DNA of 64,000 bases, taken from contig NZ_JAFIDN010000002.1 in NCBI RefSeq assembly GCF_017921895.1, positions 186,001-250,000 of the forward strand, in the 5' to 3' direction. Numbering within the stretch: the stretch's first letter is position 1; the number at the start of each line of letters is the position of its first letter. The notes under the pieces were generated by a model. That model had not been told where the DNA came from. It was given only the letters and a program-made list of their open reading frames with translations, and searched no databases. This document shows positions 30,088 through 44,049 of the stretch, piece after piece. Made by a program: the position numbers and the translations under genes. This stretch comes from Natronogracilivirga saccharolytica (GTDB taxonomy: Bacteria; Bacteroidota; Rhodothermia; Balneolales; Natronogracilivirgulaceae).

Positions 30088-30306
30088 GGCCTCGGGTATT
30101 ATATCATTACAGATATTTAAAAATAAGAGTATAGGGATATAATGCTGTTTTATCTTGTAATATTCGTTGGATTATTGTTGCATTTGATTTCACTGCTCAT
30201 TAGGATTGCATTTTTACCAAAAGCCTGATTTATGAAATCCGGAGTCTTTTTCCATACAAAGCGAAATAGCCCCTTTGACAAACATTCATCAACCTCAAGG
30301 TTTTCT

Positions 30307-31146
30307 ATGAGTATCTGGAATAGCAACAACACTGATTTCTGCAGGAAAAAACTATCGTTTGCAACAGTTTTCATACTTACGGTGACCCTGGCATCATGTG
30401 ATGTTTCCGACAGTACCGGAGATGATGAGCCCGGTGATGGAATCAGTGACGAAATACGGGAATTTGTGGATGACGGAACCCTTGCTCTGTTTGAGGATAG
30501 TTTGGATGTGCCCGTATACCGCGGTAACAGCCCACCGGATATCGAAGCGATTCTGAGCAGCGGAAATCAGGATTTCGGGTCCATGGATATTCAGTTGGAT
30601 GAAGGCATGGACGGGGTGGCTGTCGTGATGAGTCCGTATGAACTGGATGAGACTTTGGTTCCCAATGACGGTCATGAAGATTTCGATACTTTTGATGATT
30701 TATATATACGGTTTTACGACCAGGATATGGATGAACTCGAAATATCCATGGATATGATGCATGCGGATGAAAATGTGTTTGAAGGTGCAGAAGGGTATAT
30801 CACAGGCGATGAAGAGGGATTTTCCATTTTTGTCGAGCAGGAGTTTGAGCGCAACGGACATACGCAGGTTTATGTAACGCTGTTTTCCGGCCAGGCAACC
30901 CCGGATGGCATTGAAGAACCCCATGACTCCTATATTATTTCTGATGACGGAGGAGCGGATGACGGACCTCCGGAAGGAACCGGACGTTCCTATATTGACG
31001 CCAACAATTTAGCTGAAACAGAAGAATGGCCGGAGATCAGTGAAGAGCTTCATCAGACCTTTCAGTCAAAAACCCCTGGAGATACCGCTCAGAAAATCGA
31101 TGAGCTTAATCTGCGGTTTGCGCTGCCGGAGCTGTATGAGCGTTAA
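30307..31146 (+). CDS. Acidic lipoprotein of unknown function
   Basis: 279 residues from the ATG at 30307, which has AAGG 6 bases upstream and opens directly on a lipoprotein signal (KKLSFATVFILTVTLASC, lipobox LASC). A longer frame from 30232 would place 25 polar residues before the signal. The mature protein is strongly acidic: almost every tenth residue run contains several Asp/Glu, with a Met/Asp/Glu-rich centre. The C-terminal helix ends LNLRFALPELYER. I do not recognise a family. The acidity fits a surface protein in a salty habitat. No neighbour suggests a role. Confidence 0.7.
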   Translation: MSIWNSNNTDFCRKKLSFATVFILTVTLASCDVSDSTGDDEPGDGISDEIREFVDDGTLALFEDSLDVPVYRGNSPPDIEAILSSGNQDFGSMDIQLDEGMDGVAVVMSPYELDETLVPNDGHEDFDTFDDLYIRFYDQDMDELEISMDMMHADENVFEGAEGYITGDEEGFSIFVEQEFERNGHTQVYVTLFSGQATPDGIEEPHDSYIISDDGGADDGPPEGTGRSYIDANNLAETEEWPEISEELHQTFQSKTPGDTAQKIDELNLRFALPELYER

Positions 31147-31174: not shown

Positions 31175-31573
31175 TTAACCTGCTCTGGTTTCATTGGCAA
31201 GACGATTCAGAACTTCCCTCATCAAAGCGGCGTACCTGGAATGTTGTTTATAGATTTTATTGGCAATTTCCTCCAGATACGAGTGCGATAAGAGATTGCG
31301 GTCATCTATCATTTGAAGAGCGGTTTCTGCCTCCGGGTTACTTAAAAAACCGTTAGAAACAGCTTCACGAATACATTTTTTGGGTGATGCACAATCGACT
31401 CCTTCGCGGATCAAAAGCCATGTTTTCAGGGTTTTCCAGAACAATTCAACCGTATATTCAAAGCGCTGCAGGGTGGCATCTCTCAATATGACCGAGTACT
31501 CCTCTTTCTGCAAAGCTTCCAGGCTTTGAAGTGCTTTTTCAAAATTTTTCAGGTTTCTCGTCAGTTTTTCCAA
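31175..31573 (-). CDS. HEPN-type protein, HI0074-like partner of a minimal nucleotidyltransferase
   Basis: 132 residues, all helical, matching the HI0074/nucleotidyltransferase-substrate-binding group of HEPN proteins. Segments include RFEYTVELFWKTLKTWL and the HEPN R-x4-H motif in DDRNLLSHSY. The first 13 bases overlap the 3' end of the nucleotidyltransferase gene before it. In related HepT/MntA pairs the HEPN protein is an RNase toxin silenced by AMPylation. In HI0074-type pairs toxicity is not established, so toxin action here is only an inference. Confidence 0.85.
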   Translation of the reverse strand: MEKLTRNLKNFEKALQSLEALQKEEYSVILRDATLQRFEYTVELFWKTLKTWLLIREGVDCASPKKCIREAVSNGFLSNPEAETALQMIDDRNLLSHSYLEEIANKIYKQHSRYAALMREVLNRLANETRAG

Positions 31574-31866
31574 AGCAGGATCCCCTCGTTTGTGGCTTTT
31601 TCAAGCAGCGATTCCGGCGCATCTTTGTACCAAACGACATCAACATTACGGGTAATGTTAGATTCTTCCAGTTCCTCCCGGAACAGGCTGATACGTGTTC
31701 GTTCATCATGATCGGATATAATCAGAAGATCAATATCGGATGACGCTCTCAGTTCATTTTCAACAGCGGATCCAAACAGGTAGCAGCGTACTCCTCCAGC
31801 TGTAAAATGCCTTTCAAGAAGTTTTCGAATTGCGCTTTTTTCCTTTTTGGTTAATCGGGTACTCAT
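31561..31866 (-). CDS. Minimal nucleotidyltransferase (MNT), likely antitoxin-type partner
   Basis: 101 residues. The catalytic pattern of pol-beta-type minimal nucleotidyltransferases is complete: FGSAVENELRASSDIDLLI gives G-S-x10-D-x-D. The third acidic residue is expected further on (VDVVWYKD). It is the first gene of a two-gene operon, overlapping the HEPN gene by 13 bases. In characterized pairs the MNT protein AMPylates the HEPN partner. Confidence 0.87.
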   Translation of the reverse strand: MSTRLTKKEKSAIRKLLERHFTAGGVRCYLFGSAVENELRASSDIDLLIISDHDERTRISLFREELEESNITRNVDVVWYKDAPESLLEKATNEGILLWKN

Positions 31867-32752: not shown

Positions 32753-33481
32753 TCATCCCTGTGCAAGAAGGGCTTCGGCTTTCCGGAAGAGAATATTGTT
32801 TTCCAGATGCACATGCTTGTGCAGATCTTCTTCAAAACCGGCCAGGTTTTGATAAAGTACCTGATAGGTGGTGCAGGCATCCGCAGGCGGTGTGAAATCG
32901 CTGCTTAATTCACGGATTTTTGCGATGGCCTCTCCGGCACCGTCATGATCCGACTCCATTTTTTCCAGCTCGGAGCGGAGGGAGACGGCAAGGTCCGGAT
33001 CGACCGGTTTGCCGCTATCACGAAGTTCGGCCACTTGTTTGATCAGCGGGAAAACAGTTTTTTCTTCGGCCTCCAGGTGGTCCAGTAGTTCGCGGGCCAG
33101 ATCGACGAAAGTGTGGAATATGGTTATATTCCAGGGATGGCGTTCGCCATGAACTTGCGCCACTTTCTGGGCATAGGCCCCGATTTCATGTACTTTGGTC
33201 CGGACAAAACGGTGGTGGGTATTTTCGATGTAATCGATCAGAAAACCCGGGCTCCATTCGCTGTAGTTGTCACCGCCGGAGGGGGCGGATTCGGCCAGCT
33301 GCCGTAGTTGCAGTGTCACTTTTTCCGGTTCGATTCCCTTCTTTTCACACGCTTCCTGTACCGAAATCCCGCCTCCGCAACAGAAATCAATGCCGTGTTC
33401 CCGGAAAACACCAGCAGCGTGATAGTTTTGGGTGACAATGTCACCTACTTTTTGTTCGGATAGTTGTTCAAGTTGTAACAT
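32753..33481 (-). CDS. ric: Iron-sulfur cluster repair di-iron protein
   Basis: Ric/YtfE/ScdA protein, repairs iron-sulfur clusters damaged by NO or oxidants. 242 residues: N-terminal DUF542 domain with the cysteine motif FCCGGGISVQEAC near residue 33, then a hemerythrin-like domain. Its spaced His/Glu iron ligands are in IENTHHRFV, GERHPWN, HLEAEEKTVFP, ESDHDGAGE and HKHVHLENNILF. A dyad also found before the Rrf2 and cytochrome c genes lies 33-52 bases upstream. This places it in the same regulon as the nos genes. Confidence 0.95.
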   Translation of the reverse strand: MLQLEQLSEQKVGDIVTQNYHAAGVFREHGIDFCCGGGISVQEACEKKGIEPEKVTLQLRQLAESAPSGGDNYSEWSPGFLIDYIENTHHRFVRTKVHEIGAYAQKVAQVHGERHPWNITIFHTFVDLARELLDHLEAEEKTVFPLIKQVAELRDSGKPVDPDLAVSLRSELEKMESDHDGAGEAIAKIRELSSDFTPPADACTTYQVLYQNLAGFEEDLHKHVHLENNILFRKAEALLAQG

Positions 33482-33513
33482 GGGATGTGTAATTATGAGT
33501 GAAATATTATGAT

Positions 33514-33533
33514 TTAAGAGTATGTTATCTTCT
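33514..33533 (-). promoter_or_regulatory. Predicted operator upstream of ric
   Basis: On the minus strand AGAAGATAACATACTCTTAA, matching the two sites at 34543 and 35028 at 15 common positions of 20 and sharing the following AT. It is an imperfect dyad (TTAAGA-N8-TCTTAA consensus), 32 bases before the ric ATG. Confidence 0.7.
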
Positions 33534-33607: not shown

Positions 33608-34252
33608 TCAGTTATCTGGACGATCAATGTGATAAGAGCAGGAGTAATCCCCGTCGGGGATATAGGAAGTCCGTGTGACCTCTCCATCGAACAATTTCCT
33701 GTAAAATTCAATTTCCAGTTCACACGGGAGCTGTGTTTCTCCGATAACTGACTGGAACGGGCAATTGCACTCCTTTATGACATAGGCTCCCTGCTGTTTG
33801 TCATCCATGCATTCCGGCATGAAGCCTTCTTGCTCCAACACGCTGCAAAGAGCGGAAAGCTGCTTGTCCGGGGAGCCTCCGTTTTCTGTTGCGGCCTCAT
33901 TCATACGTTGCCGGGCCCTATCAACCCGTTTGCTCCAGAACCGCCTGAAAAAGGAACGCAGCAGTTCCTCCTGGTCTTCCGATTTCAGAAAGTGCAGAAG
34001 ATCACCCAGCAGCTCCCGCTCTTCGGAGGGAAACCGGCGATGTCCGGCAAGGGTCAGCCCATAACGAAGTCCCGGACGACCCGGACCTGCCCGGCGGTAT
34101 TCCCTTTCGACCAGGCCGTCGCGTTCCAGCTGCGTTAAATGTTCACGCAATGTCGTTTTGGCCAAACCGGTCTCATCGACCAGCCGGTTGAGCCCGATAC
34201 AGCCTTTCCGCTTGATGGTTTCCAGAATATGTAATTTGGAGTTGTTTTCCAT
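33608..34252 (-). CDS. SufR-like winged-helix regulator with C-terminal cysteine cluster
   Basis: 214 residues. N-terminal winged helix (CIGLNRLVDETGLAKTTLRE, wing RRAGPGRPGLRYGLT), then a long helical middle. The C-terminal cysteine set has CNCPFQS, LPCELE and YSCSYHI, with another Cys before (PECMDD). This NCPF...C...C-x-Y pattern is that of SufR and related iron-sulfur-cluster regulators. It points to a redox- or NO-sensing cluster. It is divergent from the nos block and lies next to ric, 126 bp beyond its start. Targets are not evident; the ric/Rrf2/nos dyad is absent from its own upstream region. Confidence 0.8.
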   Translation of the reverse strand: MENNSKLHILETIKRKGCIGLNRLVDETGLAKTTLREHLTQLERDGLVEREYRRAGPGRPGLRYGLTLAGHRRFPSEERELLGDLLHFLKSEDQEELLRSFFRRFWSKRVDRARQRMNEAATENGGSPDKQLSALCSVLEQEGFMPECMDDKQQGAYVIKECNCPFQSVIGETQLPCELEIEFYRKLFDGEVTRTSYIPDGDYSCSYHIDRPDN

Positions 34253-34514: not shown

Positions 34515-34543
34515 TTGACTAGTGGCTCGGAAGATCTTATAAT
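34515..34543 (+). promoter_or_regulatory. Sigma-70-like promoter of the Rrf2 regulator gene
   Basis: TTGACT (34515-34520), a 17-bp spacer and TATAAT (34538-34543). The start of transcription would fall near 34550, inside the operator dyad, giving a leader of only about 22 bases. Confidence 0.65.
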
Positions 34544-34562
34544 TAAGATAAAATACTCCTAA
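34543..34562 (+). promoter_or_regulatory. Predicted operator upstream of the Rrf2 gene
   Basis: TTAAGATAAAATACTCCTAA, an imperfect dyad (TTAAGA...TCCTAA). It starts at the last base of the -10 box, so a bound protein would block transcription. A second inverted repeat, ATCTTA-TAAT-TAAGAT (34534-34549), overlaps the -10 box itself. Confidence 0.7.
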
Positions 34563-34571
34563 ATACGATAT

Positions 34572-35036
34572 ATGCACTTTTCGAAGGCCAGTACATACGG
34601 AATCCGGTCGGTTGCTTATATAGCGGCCCACAAAGAGAAGGATGTGGTTTCCATTCGTGAGTTGAGCGAACAGTTGGACATTCCGGCCGCTTTCCTCACC
34701 AAGGTTATGCAGCGACTGGCTTCCGGCTATATTGTCAAAACCATGCGTGGCCATGGTGGAGGCGTATCGCTGGACAAGCCGTCTTCGGAAATTACCCTGA
34801 AGGAAATTATTACAGCAATCGACGGGGAGGAGGCTTTTGACCGTTTCTGGCTGGGTCTTTCGGAGAAGCACATGGAGCTTGTTCCTGAATTTCGTGCCAA
34901 ATGGCAAAATCTGAATAATAATATTAGCGATTTTTTTTCTAATACCCGGCTTACCGAATTGTATCCATCAGAGGAAAAATCAGAGCATAAGCCAATTGAC
35001 TTACCAGCGTCTTTTTTTAATCCCTATTTAAGATAA
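34572..35036 (+). CDS. Rrf2-family transcriptional regulator without cysteines
   Basis: 154 residues. Winged-helix domain with the Rrf2 signature ASTYGIRSVAYIA, the recognition region (DIPAAFLTKVMQRL) and a wing GHGGGVSLDKP. Family members that sense NO or iron-sulfur status (NsrR, IscR) hold a cluster on three cysteines after the wing. This protein has no cysteine at all: that stretch reads DGEEAFDRFWLGLSEKH. The gene is the first of the nos block, 22 bp before the cytochrome c gene, and both carry the same dyad. It is probably autoregulated and controls nos and ric; the signal it senses is open. Confidence 0.88.
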   Translation: MHFSKASTYGIRSVAYIAAHKEKDVVSIRELSEQLDIPAAFLTKVMQRLASGYIVKTMRGHGGGVSLDKPSSEITLKEIITAIDGEEAFDRFWLGLSEKHMELVPEFRAKWQNLNNNISDFFSNTRLTELYPSEEKSEHKPIDLPASFFNPYLR

Positions 35037-35058: not shown

Positions 35059-35532
35059 ATGAAACGAGTATTGATTCTGGCAGCATTACTACTGTTTTCT
35101 ACGGCGTGCGGAAATGGAGATGAGACGGCGGAAAGAGCCGGTGATGACGCCGCGGCTGAGCTGACCGATTTTGAATTGCAGCACGGTATTGGCCCGATTG
35201 ATGAACCCCTGGATCTCGGCGAAGTTCAGATTGAACGGGCACGGGCCGGGGCTGAATATTTTGACAGCCGGTGCGCCTCCTGTCACCGGATGGAGCAGCG
35301 GTTTGTAGGTCCGGCGTTGGGGCGTGTAGCGGAAAACCGGTCTCATGAATTTGTGATCAACTTCATCCTCAATCCGGAAGAGATGACGCAGCGGCACCCG
35401 GTGGGACAGGCGCTTCTTCAGGAGTATATGACGACCATGCCATACCAGAATGTGACCGAAGAGCAGGCTGCTGAAATACTTGATTTCCTGCGTCACTACG
35501 CGGATACGGGAGAGGACCTTCGCGAGCAATAG
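35059..35532 (+). CDS. Monoheme cytochrome c lipoprotein of the nos operon
   Basis: 157 residues: lipoprotein signal (ILAALLLFSTACG), an acidic linker, then a cytochrome c domain with the heme motif CASCH and a likely axial Met in TTMPYQN. It is attached to the membrane outside the cytoplasm. It lies 51 bp before nosZ. In clade II nos clusters such small cytochromes (NosC-type) pass electrons to NosZ, which is the likely role here. Confidence 0.9.
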   Translation: MKRVLILAALLLFSTACGNGDETAERAGDDAAAELTDFELQHGIGPIDEPLDLGEVQIERARAGAEYFDSRCASCHRMEQRFVGPALGRVAENRSHEFVINFILNPEEMTQRHPVGQALLQEYMTTMPYQNVTEEQAAEILDFLRHYADTGEDLREQ

Positions 35533-35583: not shown

Positions 35584-37566
35584 ATGGAGAACAATATGAT
35601 ACAAAAAACAACAATATGGAAGGTGTCGACGGTTTTACTGGGCATCGGCCTGGTGTCGGTTCTGATGTACGGGTGTCCGTCACAGACCGAGATGCTGGAT
35701 ACGGGGGATGCCGCCCAGCGTGTATATGTCGCACCCGGAGAGTATGATGAGTATTATGCGTTCCTGTCCGGCGGGTACAGCGGACAATTGAGTGTGTGGG
35801 GGCTTCCATCCGGACGTATGTTCCGGAACATACCGGTCTTTTCTCAGGATCCGGAGTCGGGTTACGGCTACTCGGAAGAGACCAAGCCACTGCTGATGAC
35901 CAGTTACGGCTTTATTCCCTGGGACGATTCCCATCATCCCGAATTGTCGCTGACCAACAGTATGCCGGATGGAAGATGGATGTTTATCAATGCCAACAAC
36001 ACCCCTCGGGTGGCACGGATTGATCTTACTTCTTTCGAAACCGTGGAAACCCTGGAACTGCCGAATACCGGCGGTAACCACGCTTCAACATTTGCTACCG
36101 AAAACACCGAATATATTATCGGTGCTACCCGGTTCAGTATCCCCTATGATATGGACATGGATGTGCCGATCGATACCTATAGCGAGAATTTTGACGGCTC
36201 GCTCAGTTTTATCGGGGTGGATGATGAGACGGGCGAAATGAGTATGGATTTCCAGATTCTTATGCCTCCTTATCACTATGATCTGGGTCGTGCCGGCAAG
36301 GGCCCATCGGCCGATTGGGTGTTCTTTACCACCTACAACACCGAAGAGGCGCATACACTGCTGGAGATCAACGCTTCGGAATTTGACAAGGATTACATTG
36401 TTGCGGTGAATTGGAAAATGGCCGAAGAGTATGTCCGGGAAGGTCGGGCAGAGACTGTCCCGGCTGAATACTATCACAATATGAAAGACGAAAATACCAG
36501 TGTAGCGGTATCCAATGTGCATGATGAGGTGCTGCTCCTGGATCCCCGCGATGCTCCGGATATGATCTATTTTCTGCCGACCCCCAAATCGCCGCACGGT
36601 GTGGATATCGATCCGACCGGCGAGTATATCGTAGGTGGCGGAAAACTGGCGACGGTTATTCCGGTGCATTCGTTCAGTCGGATGTTGGACGCGATCGATA
36701 ATGACGCGTTTGAAGAGATCATTAACGGTATTCCGGTTCTGGAATATGAGTCCACGATTGTAGGTGAGGTGGAAAATCCGGGATTGGGGCCCCTGCATAC
36801 CGAATTTGACGGTGACGGTCACGCCTATACGTCGGTCTATATCTCTTCCGAAATTGTAAAATGGTCGCTGGAGACGTTTGAAGTGGTGGATCGCATCGAC
36901 TCCTACTACTCCATCGGTCACCTGATGATCACCGGTGGTGATACCCCGAATCCCGACAAGCGATATATGCTGGGACTGACCAAGACCAGTCGCGATCGTT
37001 TTCTTCCAACCGGACCCAAACAGTTGCACCCCGCCCAGCTTTATGATATCTCGGGCGATAGGATGGAAATGCTGCTCGATTTCCCGACGATAGGCGAACC
37101 TCATTATGCCCAGGCGATTCCGGCTGATCAGATTCGTGATAATGTCAAACAGATCTATGATCTGGACGCGAATAACCATCCCCATGCTGTCAAACGGACT
37201 GCTGATGCTCGTGTGGAACGGGACGGAGATGTCGTTCGGGTCTATATGACCAATATCCGAAGCCATTTCACCCCGGATAATATTGAGGGAATTCGTGTTG
37301 GCGACGAAGTCCATTTCCACCTGACCAATATCGAGCAGGACTGGGATATGGTACACGGATTTGCCATCAAGGGGTCAAATAGTGCCGAAGTGCTGATTGC
37401 ACCGGGTGAGACCAAGACCATTGTATGGCATCCGCAACGTACCGGAATTTTTCCATTCTACTGCACAGCCTTTTGCTCCGCGCTTCATCAGGAGATGCAG
37501 GGTTATGTGCGTGTCTCACCGGCCGATACCGATGTTCCTCTGACCTGGAGAACCGGTGAGGATTGA
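35584..37566 (+). CDS. nosZ: Nitrous oxide reductase, clade II (Sec-type)
   Basis: Reduces N2O to N2 outside the cytoplasm. 660 residues. The N-terminus is a Sec-type signal (KVSTVLLGIGLVSVLMYGC) without a twin-arginine motif, the mark of clade II. The Cys at 31 could also be a lipid site, although the lipobox is weak. A seven-bladed propeller carries CuZ histidines (DDSHHPEL at 117-118, GGNHAST, SPHGVD, GPLHTEFD, GEPHYAQ). The C-terminal cupredoxin domain has the CuA motif CTAFCSALHQEM (Cys627, Cys631, His635, Met638). All expected copper ligands appear present, so the enzyme should be active. Second gene of the operon. Confidence 0.96.
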   Translation: MENNMIQKTTIWKVSTVLLGIGLVSVLMYGCPSQTEMLDTGDAAQRVYVAPGEYDEYYAFLSGGYSGQLSVWGLPSGRMFRNIPVFSQDPESGYGYSEETKPLLMTSYGFIPWDDSHHPELSLTNSMPDGRWMFINANNTPRVARIDLTSFETVETLELPNTGGNHASTFATENTEYIIGATRFSIPYDMDMDVPIDTYSENFDGSLSFIGVDDETGEMSMDFQILMPPYHYDLGRAGKGPSADWVFFTTYNTEEAHTLLEINASEFDKDYIVAVNWKMAEEYVREGRAETVPAEYYHNMKDENTSVAVSNVHDEVLLLDPRDAPDMIYFLPTPKSPHGVDIDPTGEYIVGGGKLATVIPVHSFSRMLDAIDNDAFEEIINGIPVLEYESTIVGEVENPGLGPLHTEFDGDGHAYTSVYISSEIVKWSLETFEVVDRIDSYYSIGHLMITGGDTPNPDKRYMLGLTKTSRDRFLPTGPKQLHPAQLYDISGDRMEMLLDFPTIGEPHYAQAIPADQIRDNVKQIYDLDANNHPHAVKRTADARVERDGDVVRVYMTNIRSHFTPDNIEGIRVGDEVHFHLTNIEQDWDMVHGFAIKGSNSAEVLIAPGETKTIVWHPQRTGIFPFYCTAFCSALHQEMQGYVRVSPADTDVPLTWRTGED

Positions 37567-37703: not shown

Positions 37704-38288
37704 ATGAACAGGACCTCCCGTCTCGGATTATTTCTTGCAGCGTTGTTGCTGATTCCGGTTTTTTTCACTCCGATATGGAGCATAACCCTGACCGCCCCGC
37801 AGTATCCGGACGGCATCGGGATGTATATCTGGGTGAATGATATTACGGGTCACGAGCGACACGATATTCAGAATATCAATATTCTGAATCACTATGTCGG
37901 AATGCAGGAAATAGACCCCGATCAAGTACCGACCCTGGATATTATACCATGGGTTATTGCCGGTCTGATAGCACTGGCTGCCGCTGCAGCCGCCACAGGT
38001 TCCCGGTGGCTGGCATGGATCTGGGTTGCCCTGTTTATCATTTCCGGGGTGGCGGGAATGTACGATTTCTACATGTGGGGATACGAGTACGGACATAACC
38101 TTGACCCGCGGGCGGCCATCAAAGTGCCGGATATGACGTATCAGCCTCCGGTAATAGGCCGGGAAACGTTGCTGAATATTACGGCACATTCCTGGCCCTA
38201 TTGGGGCACACTTTGGGTCACACTTTCATTGTTAACAGGCACCGGTGGTCTGTTTTGGGACCGGATTGCCAAAAAGAAAGGTAGATGA
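37704..38288 (+). CDS. nos-cluster membrane protein of unknown function
   Basis: 194 residues with four membrane helices: LFLAALLLIPVFFTPIW near the start, WVIAGLIALAAAAAATG, WIWVALFIISGVAGMY and WGTLWVTLSLLTGTGGLFW. Between them are exposed segments rich in Tyr, His and Trp (DFYMWGYEYGHNLDP). It lies between nosZ and the NosL-type genes and ends 1 bp before the next gene. I know similar proteins only as unnamed members of nos clusters. Copper delivery or electron transfer to NosZ is inferred from position alone. Confidence 0.75.
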   Translation: MNRTSRLGLFLAALLLIPVFFTPIWSITLTAPQYPDGIGMYIWVNDITGHERHDIQNINILNHYVGMQEIDPDQVPTLDIIPWVIAGLIALAAAAAATGSRWLAWIWVALFIISGVAGMYDFYMWGYEYGHNLDPRAAIKVPDMTYQPPVIGRETLLNITAHSWPYWGTLWVTLSLLTGTGGLFWDRIAKKKGR

Positions 38289-38949: not shown

Positions 38950-39456
38950 ATGATTGCAATGATGAAAATGAAAAATATACGAGAAATGGAAAAATACGGC
39001 CGGTATATATGGACGATAGGAATCGTAATGGTGTTAGCGGCATGTGACCCCGGTCCGCAGGATATTCGAATCGGAGAACAGGAGTGTGACCATTGCCGCA
39101 TGATGATCAGCGATGAGCGTTTTGCGTCGCAGCTGGTGACCGAACAGGGCCGGCAGTACGCGTTTGACGCCATAGAATGTATGGTGGCTTTTGTGGATGG
39201 CGGAGAAGGGCAAAGTCTTGATATCCACAGCCTGTGGGTTCCTGATTTTGAACGGCCCGGTGAGTGGCTTGCGGCTGAGGAGGCGTACTATCTGCAAAGT
39301 GATGAGTTGCGCAGTCCGATGGCTCTGAATTTCTCTGCTTATGGGACAAGGGACGAAGCAGAACAGCAAAAAAACCGGTTTTCAGGTTCGGTGATGGAGT
39401 GGCACGAATTGGGCGGAAAGGTGCGCGAGGCCTGGTCAAACGGACATCAACATTAA
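38950..39456 (+). CDS. nosL: NosL copper chaperone lipoprotein
   Basis: Delivers Cu(I) to NosZ during CuZ assembly. 168 residues: lipoprotein signal (WTIGIVMVLAAC), then the NosL copper motif ECDHCRMMI, a beta-rich body and SPMALNFSAYG near the end. Several ATGs lie close together (38950, 38959, 38962, 38968), so the exact start is uncertain. Four bases separate it from nosD. Confidence 0.9.
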   Translation: MIAMMKMKNIREMEKYGRYIWTIGIVMVLAACDPGPQDIRIGEQECDHCRMMISDERFASQLVTEQGRQYAFDAIECMVAFVDGGEGQSLDIHSLWVPDFERPGEWLAAEEAYYLQSDELRSPMALNFSAYGTRDEAEQQKNRFSGSVMEWHELGGKVREAWSNGHQH

Positions 39457-39460
39457 TTTC

Positions 39461-40759
39461 ATGATGAAGCTCAGAGCTATAAACGGATGGATTGTAATTC
39501 TGCTTGTCGTTGTGGGCACGATGACGGCTGCAGTCCGGTATCCGGTTACGGCATCGGTGCCGACTCCCGGTCATACGAATCGTGTATTTGATGTTGGCGA
39601 GGGAGAGGAATATTCACGGATATCCGATGCCCTGGAGCAGGTCTCGGACCATGACACCATCAGGATTCATCCGGGGGTATATACTGAGCACCAATTGATT
39701 GTTGAGCAAACGGTAGTCATTGTCGGAATAGACCGGCCCGTGATCGACGCCGGTCACCAGGGAGAGGGATTCCGGATTGTTGCCGACAGTGTGCATATAG
39801 AGGGACTGGAGATACGAAATGTTCCCACCAGTCACAGTCGCGATCATGCGGCAATACGATTCGACCGCGTATCCGGCGGCAAGATAATTGACAACCGGTT
39901 TGACGATACGTTTTTCGGAATATATCTGGCCCGCTCACACGGTGTTGAGATCCGTGATAATCAACTGCGGGCTTATCAAACCAGAGAAGCTGTTTCAGCG
40001 AACGGGATCCATCTGTGGAACTCGAATCATGCTGTAATAGCAGACAATATCATCAACGGGCACCGTGACGGCATCTACCTGGAATATGTGGAGAATAGTG
40101 AAATTTACGACAATCATGCCGTGAACAATATCCGGTACGGTCTCCATTTTATGTTCTCGGACGATTGTATCTATCATCGCAACCGGTTTGAAGATAATGG
40201 GGCCGGTGTCGCCGTCATGTACAGCAAGCGAGTAATGATGGAAGAAAATGAGTTTGTACAGAACTGGGGAGCTTCATCCTACGGATTACTGTTGAAAGAG
40301 ATCACCGACAGTGAAATCAAGCACAACAATTTTTCAGGTAATACGACCGGAATTCGTGCCGAAGGAAGCGATCGCGTCAAAATTCACTACAACCGGTTTC
40401 AGCAGAACGGCTGGGCGATCCGCATCACGGCAAGCAGTATGGATAATATGATCACACATAACAACTTTATTGATAACGCGTTTGATGTTTCCACCAACAG
40501 CAGGCAGAACAACAGCACTTTTGAAGCCAACTACTGGGACAAGTACAGTGGTTACGATCTGAAAGGCGACGGGTATGGGGATGTCCCCTACCGGCCGGTG
40601 AGGCTCTTCTCATTGATCGTGGAACGCAACCCGATGGCTCTGATGCTGCTTCGCAGTATGTTCGTGCAGATTCTGGATCTGACCGAGCGCATCATGCCGA
40701 CTATCACTCCGGAAACACTGGTGGATGAAAAGCCGCTTATGAGCGAGGTATCCTTATGA
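39461..40759 (+). CDS. nosD: NosD periplasmic copper-maturation protein
   Basis: 432 residues, exported (signal ending near residue 27), then a right-handed beta-helix of CASH repeats. Examples are GIYLARSHGVEIRDNQL, GIHLWNSNHAVIADNII, GIYLEYVENSEIYDN and GLHFMFSDDCIYHRN. It ends with the NosD-type NYWDKYSGYDLKGDGYGD followed by a membrane-proximal segment. NosD works with NosF and NosY in assembling the sulfide-bridged CuZ site. The stop overlaps nosF by 4 bases (ATGA), showing translational coupling. Confidence 0.94.
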   Translation: MMKLRAINGWIVILLVVVGTMTAAVRYPVTASVPTPGHTNRVFDVGEGEEYSRISDALEQVSDHDTIRIHPGVYTEHQLIVEQTVVIVGIDRPVIDAGHQGEGFRIVADSVHIEGLEIRNVPTSHSRDHAAIRFDRVSGGKIIDNRFDDTFFGIYLARSHGVEIRDNQLRAYQTREAVSANGIHLWNSNHAVIADNIINGHRDGIYLEYVENSEIYDNHAVNNIRYGLHFMFSDDCIYHRNRFEDNGAGVAVMYSKRVMMEENEFVQNWGASSYGLLLKEITDSEIKHNNFSGNTTGIRAEGSDRVKIHYNRFQQNGWAIRITASSMDNMITHNNFIDNAFDVSTNSRQNNSTFEANYWDKYSGYDLKGDGYGDVPYRPVRLFSLIVERNPMALMLLRSMFVQILDLTERIMPTITPETLVDEKPLMSEVSL

Positions 40760-41544
40760 TCACAATTACAGAGCTTGATAAACACTATGGCGCACTTCAC
40801 GCACTGAAGTCCGTGGAAGTGGATATCGCCCCTGGCAAGATAACCGCGGTATTGGGTCCGAACGGCGCCGGTAAGACGACACTTATAAAAAGCGTACTCG
40901 GACTTGTGAAGCCTGATTCCGGGACCATCACCGTGGATGGTACGGCTGTCAACGGTGACAGTGACTATCGCCGGAAAATCGGCTATATGCCGCAGATAGC
41001 CCGCTATCCGGAAAACCTGACGCTGCAGGAGATCGTGGATATGATCAAGGATATCCGGGGCTACAGCGGAGACTCCGGGACATCGAAGGATTCTTCCGGA
41101 GATCTTGATATGGAGCTGTGGGACCGGTTTGATCTGGATACCGAAAAGGACAAGCCGTTCCGGACATTGTCAGGCGGCAACCGCCAAAAAGTGAGTGCGG
41201 TTCTGGCATTTCTGTTCCGGCCGAAGGTGCTGTTTCTCGATGAGCCGTCCACGGGGCTCGATCCGGTTTCCAGCAGTATTCTGAAAGACAAGATACTGGC
41301 TGAAATAAAGCGCGGCACCACCATCATCCTCACTTCCCATATCATGAGCGAAGTGCAAGAGCTGGCCGATCAGGTGGTCTATCTGCTGGAAGGGCGAATC
41401 TATTTTGAACTGAGCGTGTCCGATCTGCTTGCCGATACCGGACAACAAACCCTGGAGCGTGCCATTGCGTGGAAAATCGGTCAGAATGGAGCGGTCGCGT
41501 CACGGAATGGAATGACAGAAGGCTATGAGCCGGCAGATGGGTAG
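40756..41544 (+). CDS. nosF: NosF ABC transporter ATPase
   Basis: 262 residues. Walker A GPNGAGKTTLIKS, signature LSGGNRQKVSA, Walker B VLFLDEPSTGLDP and the switch His in LTSHIMSEV. Energizes the NosDFY complex. Starts within the ATGA shared with nosD. It is 65 bp before nosY, a gap without another gene. Confidence 0.95.
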   Translation: MITITELDKHYGALHALKSVEVDIAPGKITAVLGPNGAGKTTLIKSVLGLVKPDSGTITVDGTAVNGDSDYRRKIGYMPQIARYPENLTLQEIVDMIKDIRGYSGDSGTSKDSSGDLDMELWDRFDLDTEKDKPFRTLSGGNRQKVSAVLAFLFRPKVLFLDEPSTGLDPVSSSILKDKILAEIKRGTTIILTSHIMSEVQELADQVVYLLEGRIYFELSVSDLLADTGQQTLERAIAWKIGQNGAVASRNGMTEGYEPADG

Positions 41545-41609: not shown

Positions 41610-42392
41610 ATGATTGCAAAGATCCTGAAATATCAGCTCAGAGATGTGATTCGCAGCAGATGGATCATTGCTTATGCGCTGTTTTTTCTGGGGCTGACGG
41701 ATATCCTTTTCCGTTTTGGAGGCGATGGAGTGCGGGTGGCCACCAGTATGATGAATGTTGTTTTGATCGTGATTCCGCTGGCATCCATTATCCTCGGGGC
41801 ATTCTACCTCTACAATACGCGGGAGTATATCGAAATGCTTCTGTGTCACCCTGTAAAACGCCACCAGTTGTTCTGGGGGATGTTTCTGGGCCTTGGCCTG
41901 CCGTTGGTACTGGCATTTACCGGTGGCGTGATGGTACCTTTCATATATCACGGTGCCGGTCCGGAAGCATGGACCGCCGCAGGGATGCTGACCTTTACCG
42001 GTTCCATGCTGACGGTTATTTTTGTCGGTATCGCCTATTATCTTGCTCTTCGCTTTGATGATCGGATCAAAGGACTCGGACTCGCACTGGTTATCTGCCT
42101 CTTTTTCACGGTAATATATGATGGGATCATACTCCTGGTGATTTATATGTTTGCAAACTACCCGCTGGAGAAGCCGGTGCTGGCATTATCACTGTTCAAC
42201 CCCATTGACCTCGGACGGATACTGCTGTTGCTGCAGTTTGATATATCCGCCCTTATGGGACTTACCGGTGCCGTTTTCCGGGATTTCTTCGGCACGGTGC
42301 TCGGAATGGCGATTGCCCTCGGCAGCTTGCTGCTCTGGCTGTTCGTCCCGGTATATGGTGGATTCCGGCGTTTTCTGTATAAAGATTTCTGA
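41610..42392 (+). CDS. nosY: NosY ABC transporter permease
   Basis: 260 residues with six membrane helices and the typical N-terminus (ILKYQLRDVIRSRWIIAYALFF). The family segment EYIEMLLCHPVKRHQLFWG follows the second helix, and FNPIDLGRILLLLQFD lies before the last two helices. An unusually good ribosome-binding site, GAAGGAGGGG, lies 6-15 bases before the ATG. Membrane part of the NosDFY complex. Confidence 0.94.
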   Translation: MIAKILKYQLRDVIRSRWIIAYALFFLGLTDILFRFGGDGVRVATSMMNVVLIVIPLASIILGAFYLYNTREYIEMLLCHPVKRHQLFWGMFLGLGLPLVLAFTGGVMVPFIYHGAGPEAWTAAGMLTFTGSMLTVIFVGIAYYLALRFDDRIKGLGLALVICLFFTVIYDGIILLVIYMFANYPLEKPVLALSLFNPIDLGRILLLLQFDISALMGLTGAVFRDFFGTVLGMAIALGSLLLWLFVPVYGGFRRFLYKDF

Positions 42393-42415: not shown

Positions 42416-42739
42416 ATGGCTCATGATATTGATATGAACGAACACTTTGCCCGGACCAAACCGGACCGGGGGATACTGAGTGAAACCCTTTTCAAAAATG
42501 AACACACTTCCCTGGTGGTGATGCATCTGGCACCGGGTGAGGAGCTGAATGAACACACTTCAAAGTTTCCGGTATGGATACAGACCATCGAAGGTGACGG
42601 AAAACTCAAGACGCCGGAGGAAGAGTACGAAATGACCCCCGGCGGATGGATCTATCTTGAACCTGCCGAAGAGCATGCGGTTTTTCCCACCTCGGATGCC
42701 GTGCTTCGCTTTGCCCTGATAATCATGAAGAAGCAGTAA
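42416..42739 (+). CDS. Small cupin protein
   Basis: 107 residues, a single beta-barrel cupin: GEELNEHTSKFPVWIQTIEG carries the His/Glu region and EEHAVFPTSDAVLRFALI the second motif. His and Glu residues suitable for one metal ion are present. It is 23 bp after nosY, so it is probably in the nos operon. A sensor of, or binder for, metal or heme is conceivable; no enzyme activity can be named. Confidence 0.8.
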   Translation: MAHDIDMNEHFARTKPDRGILSETLFKNEHTSLVVMHLAPGEELNEHTSKFPVWIQTIEGDGKLKTPEEEYEMTPGGWIYLEPAEEHAVFPTSDAVLRFALIIMKKQ

Positions 42740-42765: not shown

Positions 42766-44049
42766 ATGATTCGGAAATGGTACTATATACCGGCCCTGTT
42801 GTTTCTGGCTCTGACCCTTGTCAGCGGTATTTGGCTCCGTTTGCAGTGGGCCTGGCCCCAGTGGATGCTGTTTCGCGCCGATTACCTGATACACGGACAC
42901 TCTCATGTTGCATTGCTGGGATGGGCCTTTTTAGGAATGATGGGACTGGTACTGGAAGCGGGAACAATCCGGCGTACACTTCCGCGACGCAGTGTCACCG
43001 GTCTGGGGACATTGACCGTCCTGGTCACTTTTCTTTTGTTTGTTGCTTTTGTACGTGAAGGTTATGCCCCGCTTTCCATCGCTTTGTCTACTGTTCATAT
43101 GCTTTTGGGCTATGGGCTGGCATGGATTTTTTTCCGAAATGCCGTCGGGGATGGTCATCCGGGCTCTCAATATTTCCTGGAAGGCGCTGTGTTCTGGATG
43201 GTGATGGCTACAGCAGGTATATGGCTGCTGGCTGTTGGCCGTGGGTTACCACCCTTCTGGGTGGATGCGTCTGTACAATTTTACCTGCACATACTTTTCA
43301 ATGGCTGGTTTCTTTTTGCCCTATGCGGACTTGCTTTCCGTTATTTCATTGACCCGCAATACCGGCACATGACCTGGCCTTTCTGGCTCATGATGGTCGG
43401 GTTGGTTCCGGCTTTGATTCCGCAACTTCCACTACAGGAACCCTCTTATGCGGTAGTTTTGTCCGGATTAGCCGGTTCACTTCTGTTTGCAGCCGGAGGA
43501 TTGGCCGTACTGGGCTCTACACTTCGGTCCCTCACCGGTCGCTGGTCCTATGCCAATAAGGCATGTTTTCATGGCACAGGCCATCAAACTCGTTGGATAT
43601 GCAAGGAACTGTTATGGTCGGGTCTAATTGGGGCCGGACCTGTCTTCTTGCTTCCGGTCGCCATGGCCTGGCCCCCCTTTCGGGAAATATGGCTGCATTC
43701 CGATTTTTTGGTAATAGGCTATATCCATTTACATCTACTGGTGGTGGTATCCACTCTGCTACTCTTTGGGATACTGCAACGATTATTTAAACTACAGCAG
43801 ACGGATAGGGTCCTGAAAACGCTTCATGCCGGAGCATGGCTCTATCTCACCGGAAGCATCACCATGGTAATCCTTCTGTTTCTTACCGGCATCATACAGG
43901 TCACCGGAAAAACTGTTTTTTTCCCCGTACAGAAATCACTCTTCTACACCGGGGTCATATCATTAACCGGAATTTTAATTATTGCAGGCTTGCTTATAGG
44001 GATCAATATAGAACGGTTTTACCATGGGAGTGTTAAAAGGAAAGAATGA
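42766..44049 (+). CDS. Polytopic membrane protein with heme-copper-oxidase-like histidines
   Basis: 427 residues and about 12 membrane helices. Histidine clusters in helices: LIHGHSHVALLGWAFLGM near residue 45, LSTVHMLLGYGLAW, YLHILFNGWFLFALCG and YIHLHLLVVVSTLL. This spacing recalls the subunit I fold of heme-copper oxidases, NO reductase, and NnrS-type proteins. The usual full set of six ligands and the Tyr-His motif is not clear. Last gene of the nos series, 26 bp after the cupin. Position suggests a role in NO handling; a heme- or copper-binding membrane protein is the safest description. Confidence 0.65.
   Translation: MIRKWYYIPALLFLALTLVSGIWLRLQWAWPQWMLFRADYLIHGHSHVALLGWAFLGMMGLVLEAGTIRRTLPRRSVTGLGTLTVLVTFLLFVAFVREGYAPLSIALSTVHMLLGYGLAWIFFRNAVGDGHPGSQYFLEGAVFWMVMATAGIWLLAVGRGLPPFWVDASVQFYLHILFNGWFLFALCGLAFRYFIDPQYRHMTWPFWLMMVGLVPALIPQLPLQEPSYAVVLSGLAGSLLFAAGGLAVLGSTLRSLTGRWSYANKACFHGTGHQTRWICKELLWSGLIGAGPVFLLPVAMAWPPFREIWLHSDFLVIGYIHLHLLVVVSTLLLFGILQRLFKLQQTDRVLKTLHAGAWLYLTGSITMVILLFLTGIIQVTGKTVFFPVQKSLFYTGVISLTGILIIAGLLIGINIERFYHGSVKRKE

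Follow-up and report, generated by a model that had tools for sequence, protein, structure and literature searches.

In one Balneolales clade of Rrf2 regulators, which includes the protein encoded at the Natronogracilivirga saccharolytica nos locus, other residues have taken the place of the entire Fe-S module, namely C92, C99, C105, H108 and the N-terminal C7. Both the winged-helix domain and the predicted dimerisation helix are nonetheless conserved, as are two predicted nos operators. The gene was analyzed in a 64,000-nucleotide stretch of the N. saccharolytica genome, referred to below as the window, together with its orthologs and with other Rrf2 genes at nosZ loci.

The Rrf2 gene and the nos locus

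The rrf2 gene ends 22 bp before a cytochrome c gene, which is followed by a clade II (Sec-type) nosZ. The genes of the locus are listed below.

34572..35036, + strand: Cys-less Rrf2 nos regulator, 154 aa, ATG start, zero Cys (PF02082, E 1.8e-25)
35059..35532, + strand: c-type cytochrome, first gene 3' of rrf2 (PF00034, 1.5e-8)
35584..37566, + strand: nosZ, clade II Sec-dependent nitrous-oxide reductase (TIGR04246, 884.7 bits, cut-off 625)
37704..38288, + strand: nos-operon membrane protein, function not assigned (no Pfam/NCBIfam match)
38950..39456, + strand: nosL (PF05573, 5.5e-11)
39461..40759, + strand: nosD (TIGR04247, 422.7 bits)
40756..41544, + strand: nosF-like ABC ATPase (by position and sequence only)
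41610..42392, + strand: nosY-like membrane permease (by position and sequence only)
32753..33481, − strand: RIC (YtfE/ScdA/DnrN) di-iron Fe-S repair protein (TIGR03652, 232.5 bits), with operator 3 upstream
33608..34252, − strand: SufR-like HTH regulator with C-terminal cysteines, paired with RIC (TIGR02702, 80.6 bits, below the 178.8 cut-off)

The Rrf2 protein scores above the cut-offs of PF02082 (90.1 bits; cut-off 30) and TIGR00738 (NCBIfam rrf2_super; 94.5 bits, cut-off 73.3, E 4.7e-27). These scores, together with the winged HTH and long dimerisation helix found in the AF2 model and its PDB matches, place it in the Rrf2 superfamily. The initial annotation had described a protein of 154 residues without any cysteine, and the translation confirms this. 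The NsrR equivalog model NF008240 aligns with residues 5–84 only and gives 43.9 bits against a cut-off of 182, although this model is narrow and a score below its cut-off is by itself weak evidence against NsrR. The scores against the CymR equivalog NF047409 (50.0 vs. 195 bits) and IscR (57.1 vs. 207.55 bits) also fall below the cut-offs, and the absence of cysteine and the linkage to nos genes further separate the protein from IscR. An Rrf2 fold without Fe-S ligands is shared with CymR. None of the nine orthologs described below carries any of the three NsrR cysteines, and the predicted dyad sites before nosZ, nirK, RIC, cupin and DUF2249 genes are those expected of an NsrR regulon.

A protein resembling, by eye, the product of 37704..38288 also precedes a Cys-bearing rrf2 elsewhere in the same genome (G000 C2:396k; compared with L002 831-1394). 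The 3' side of the nos cluster is occupied by a 427-aa membrane protein without a Pfam match (42766–44049, + strand). A HepT-like/NTase substrate-binding gene (31175–31866, − strand) adjoins a nucleotidyltransferase gene, and the two are likely a HEPN-MNT toxin-antitoxin pair.

Clade-wide loss of the cluster ligands

A family-wide search retrieved nine orthologs of the Cys-less Rrf2, including that of the window, from five genera (g1, g3, g4, g8 and g9) of one family. All nine are located directly upstream of cytochrome c-nosZ. They were compared, column by column in an alignment, with 40 nosZ-linked Rrf2 proteins of other families. The orthologs have F or I at position 92 (Cys 0/9 vs. 40/40) and E, K, R or D at position 99 (Cys 0/9 vs. 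38/40); position 105, which is Cys in 39 of the 40, is P in all nine. The motif histidine H108, present in 39/40, is likewise replaced in the clade. Position 7 is Ser in 9/9 orthologs; it is Cys in 30 of the 40 other-family proteins and in all 13 Cys-bearing Rrf2 paralogs of the family itself. In Streptomyces coelicolor NsrR, Asp8 is the fourth cluster ligand and is donated by the other subunit (PMC5411485). Because C7 adjoins this position, it may by analogy serve as a cluster ligand in the Cys-bearing relatives, which we offer as a lead.

By a looser pattern, C-x(5-8)-C-x(3-6)-C, the cysteines are kept in 55 of the 57 Rrf2 proteins at nosZ loci outside the clade. The initial annotation had allowed that relatives in the same position might carry the three cysteines, in which case the loss would be peculiar to one strain. 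The first part holds outside the clade but fails among the close relatives, all nine of which lack the cysteines, and the loss is therefore specific to the clade. In the same family, G006 and G009, of another genus, possess nosZ with a divergent Rrf2 that retains Cys in the ligand columns. The two exceptions to the looser pattern, L077 (G235) and L102 (G215), have a partial cysteine set and are possibly intermediate states.

Cysteine is missing from the entire protein only in the window's genome (G000), G003 and G002, and the other six orthologs have a single C-terminal Cys (126 or 131). The sound statement for the clade is that the ligand set is lost, not that cysteine is absent altogether. 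The earlier view that a canonical cluster cannot be held applies to the whole clade, with the cluster-ligand Cys gone in 9/9 orthologs.

Heme, or non-heme iron bound by His/Asp/Glu, had been put forward as another means of sensing. Position 99 is acidic in 7/9 orthologs, and E87 and E129 are invariant, as could suit a cofactor held on other residues. However, a per-column search for replacement ligands found no invariant His or Cys across the nine orthologs, a result that speaks against both heme and a conserved metal site. The former ligand columns hold F/I, E/K/R/D and P, and the window protein itself has K99. We consider such a cofactor very unlikely.

Selection, phylogeny and structure

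The Cys-less orthologs are under strong purifying selection, with pairwise dN/dS of 0.04–0.17. In four close pairs, constraint on the former sensor part (residues 81–132) equals or exceeds that on the DNA-binding part (pN 0.008–0.032 vs. 0.027–0.047). The departure from an otherwise nearly invariant motif might suggest a decaying gene or a sequencing or assembly error. This explanation is scarcely credible, as the loss occurs in nine separate assemblies with these dN/dS values and with a conserved promoter and operators. The same observations rule out a pseudogene and a strain-specific loss.

The Cys-less clade is monophyletic with 100/100 support and has a long stem. Its grouping with the Cys-bearing paralogs of the family has a p-AU of 0.10. 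As the clade is not firmly placed by the tree, it is gene position and operators, and not phylogeny, that lead us to infer a nosZ-linked Cys-bearing ancestor.

An AF2 model of the window Rrf2, based on an alignment of 31 sequences, has a pLDDT of 84 and is better than the nine-sequence model, which is poor in the former cluster loop. In the 31-sequence model, a short helix (98–103) is predicted to replace the cluster loop and the long helix would begin at P105. The closest PDB folds are those of CymR, RsrR and apo-IscR, with DNA-bound holo-NsrR ranking lower, and the best PDB sequence matches of the clade profile are the apo-IscR entries (4HF0–4HF2). In the DNA-binding half, T43, K44, Q47, R59 and the GG wing are kept, whereas the start of the recognition helix is altered (P38, A/P39 and A40; position 40 is mostly His in relatives). 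The C-terminal invariants of the clade are F89, P105, F107, K110, W111, L114, I118, F121, F122, T125, E129, L130 and P132.

The strong constraint on residues 85–132 may indicate that, rather than being a constitutive repressor, the protein has an unrecognised site for a ligand or partner. The region left free by the cluster could have become a different sensor of a small molecule, of copper or of a partner protein, as in Bacillus subtilis CymR with CysK. The clade-wide invariants of the strongly conserved C-terminal region and the position of CymR as closest fold are consistent with this, but no partner gene was found that is conserved in this clade alone, the SufR-like/RIC pair also occurs with cysteine-bearing nosZ-linked Rrf2, and dimerisation alone could account for part of the constraint. 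We regard a replacement sensor as a doubtful possibility, though one of some weight.

Predicted promoter, operators and regulon

A promoter and three putative operators were predicted around rrf2 and RIC.

34515..34543, + strand: sigma-70-like rrf2 promoter, TTGACT-17-TATAAT (11/12 consensus match)
34543..34566, + strand: predicted operator 1, TTAAGATAAAATACTCCTAAATAC, in 9/9 orthologs; begins at the last −10 base and ends 5 nt before the start codon
35028..35051, + strand: predicted operator 2, TTAAGATAAAATACACTTAAATCC, in 9/9 orthologs; between rrf2 and cytochrome c-nosZ, overlapping the rrf2 3' end
33510..33533, − strand: predicted operator 3, AGAAGATAACATACTCTTAAATCA, upstream of RIC; 2 mismatches, PWM score 21.3, the third highest in the window

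These are the three operator matches predicted in the window, against 0.02 expected. The −35/−10 region of rrf2 is mostly conserved among orthologs, and the stretch from the −10 box to the start codon is near-identical in 9/9. An operator that starts at the −10 box is in the usual place for a repressor. The operators are near-palindromic, and their dyad type is also found upstream of Cys-bearing rrf2 genes at nosZ loci in 28 of 46 distinct other-family regions (0.6 expected), and 16 have one such element just 3' of rrf2. The clearest operator in a relative, TTTAAGACAAAATTGTCTTAAA, is a 10-2-10 palindrome. The dyad center is ambiguous from the 18 nos sites alone and becomes clear once Cys-bearing relatives are added. 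Because Cys-bearing Rrf2 regions of other families share this element type, the two-operator layout predates the sensor loss, and the clade retained this DNA wiring. The core of operator 2, ACACTTA, is clade-specific: the nosZ-side site reads ACACTT in 9/9 orthologs vs. mostly ACTCTT in other families, alongside the Ala at position 40.

The nos-type motif also precedes nirK-like genes in G002, G003, G010 and G013, as well as two RIC genes in G000 and others in G002, G008, G010 and G013. It is further found before one cupin and one DUF2249-type gene of G000 and before hemN of G009; the last three names, for genes outside the window, were read from sequence. In Escherichia coli and Neisseria, NsrR represses RIC (PMC9268430); in Thermus, a cupin and a RIC-like protein occur together with NsrR (PMC5748679). 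Together with the sites at its own promoter and before cytochrome c-nosZ, this predicted regulon agrees with the initial annotation, which had the protein likely wired as an NsrR-type nos regulator.

Several of these target regions have further features. In G000 (C2:410271-411400, L182), the second RIC gene diverges from the cupin gene and both have a nos-type operator. A paralogous cupin gene in the window (42416–42739) is without one. The NirK-like copper proteins with an upstream nos-type operator (G010 C382, G013 C153, G003 C165 and G002 C131) are approximately 570–585 aa in length and have an N-terminal CDWCN segment; a protein of this kind was not found in G000.

The cysteine-bearing paralog and the SufR-like neighbor

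Only two good Rrf2 genes are present in the window's genome. The second, at C2:396540 and approximately 176 kb from the first, encodes a three-cysteine Rrf2 with CLLGLPGCGNEEPCPVH. A three-cysteine Rrf2 is also present in each of the nine genomes that hold the Cys-less form. The Cys-less Rrf2 tracks nosZ: in G007, which is 98% complete, the Cys-bearing Rrf2 is kept and nosZ, RIC and the Cys-less Rrf2 are all absent. Same-class operators occur near several Cys-bearing rrf2 genes, so the two paralogs may read overlapping sites.

The idea that sensing and operator binding are split with the SufR-like neighbor has become weak. The SufR-like gene is conserved beside RIC and tracks RIC and nosZ within the family. 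It was rejected as a compensating sensor, being also present where the nosZ-linked Rrf2 kept its Cys, both in other members of the order and in two genomes of the same family. Judged by this distribution, its product is a predicted general denitrification partner, and the three-Cys Rrf2 at C2:396540 is a better candidate for the missing sensing.

In a more intimate arrangement, the two Rrf2 proteins would form a heterodimer, with DNA binding given by the Cys-less protein and the cluster by the three-cysteine one. The co-occurrence of both forms in 9/9 genomes, the same-class operators near Cys-bearing rrf2 genes and the ligand Asp8 that the S. coelicolor NsrR cluster draws from the other subunit (PMC5411485) are compatible with such a dimer. 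Against this, the Cys-less protein no longer has C7 as a possible trans ligand, the Cys-bearing gene is distant, and an Rrf2 heterodimer was not found in the literature searched. We therefore rate the heterodimer as unlikely.

The window also contains an ORF (30232–31146, + strand) whose last ~40 aa match the C-terminus of the Cys-bearing Rrf2. From this tail onward, the DNA is 95% identical to G003 C37, the site of a full Cys-bearing rrf2. The tail seems to be a 3' relic of a rearrangement, the full copy being at C2:396540.

Proposed role of the Cys-less Rrf2

The explanation we favor, and to which we give about an even chance, is that the Cys-less protein descends from an NsrR-like, Cys-bearing regulator and now works as a cluster-free Rrf2 repressor, with the nos operon and its own gene as dedicated targets. 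It is predicted to bind the operator at the rrf2 −10 box and that before cytochrome c-nosZ with no need of a cluster, in the manner of CymR or apo-IscR. It would thereby set a cluster-independent level of repression, limited through autorepression, which NO would not relieve via this protein. NO or redox input might, with less certainty, enter via the three-cysteine paralog, the two proteins either competing for operators of one class or occupying them together.

Loss of the cluster could equally disable DNA binding, because the apo form of S. coelicolor NsrR does not bind DNA and its triple-Ala form is sterically unable to (PMC9338935). In that case only the Cys-bearing paralog would act at the nos operators, and the role of the Cys-less protein would be a different one. 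The changed start of the recognition helix fits this explanation, but the strong constraint on the winged-helix half, with its conserved T43, K44, Q47, R59 and GG wing, and the operator at the gene's own promoter in 9/9 orthologs make a loss of useful DNA binding quite improbable.

A further possibility is a two-protein circuit, in which the nos-dedicated, permanently cluster-free Rrf2 and the cluster-bearing Rrf2 would act on the same operators by competition or as a mixed dimer. We put this forward tentatively, as having a modest chance of being right. If true, NO sensing and fixed repression of N2O respiration would be divided between paralogs, and the ACACTT core would adapt the nosZ-side operator to the cluster-free protein.

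Comparison with known systems

Organisms with clade II nosZ are a biological sink of N2O, and to our knowledge the control of nosZ in them is little studied outside Proteobacteria. The Cys-less clade is a natural experiment in which evolution removed the Fe-S sensor and kept the operators and the predicted regulon. It thus offers a direct test of NsrR-like repression without a cluster, and of the timing of nosZ expression under a local regulator that would be blind to NO.

Rrf2 regulators have been reported to be enriched on clade II nosZ scaffolds (PMC6264515), where we found no mention of their cysteines. The window Rrf2 occupies the same position as these genes, but in the relatives sampled here the cysteines are nearly always present. 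The literature searched contained no precedent for a cysteine-free Rrf2 beside nosZ or for a heme Rrf2. Cluster-free Rrf2 proteins such as CymR were already known. For a clade-wide sensor loss in a nos regulator of the NsrR type with retained operators, no equivalent was found in the literature searched.

Like NsrR of S. coelicolor, E. coli and Thermus, the window protein combines an Rrf2 fold with an AT-rich near-palindromic operator and a predicted nitrogen-oxide regulon that includes RIC. Unlike NsrR, it has neither the three cluster cysteines nor the motif histidine and N-terminal Cys, and no canonical Fe-S cluster is possible. CymR regulates cysteine metabolism with CysK, and that of Staphylococcus aureus uses a reactive Cys. 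The window protein resembles CymR of B. subtilis and S. aureus, its best structural match, which is an Rrf2 repressor without an Fe-S cluster (PMC9338935). It differs from CymR in its nos locus, its lack of any Cys, its predicted nitrogen-oxide targets and a sequence identity of only ~19%. With apo-IscR (4HF0–4HF2) it would share cluster-free DNA binding. IscR has cysteines in vivo, and loss of its cluster switches its specificity, whereas in the Cys-less clade the loss of the cluster is permanent.
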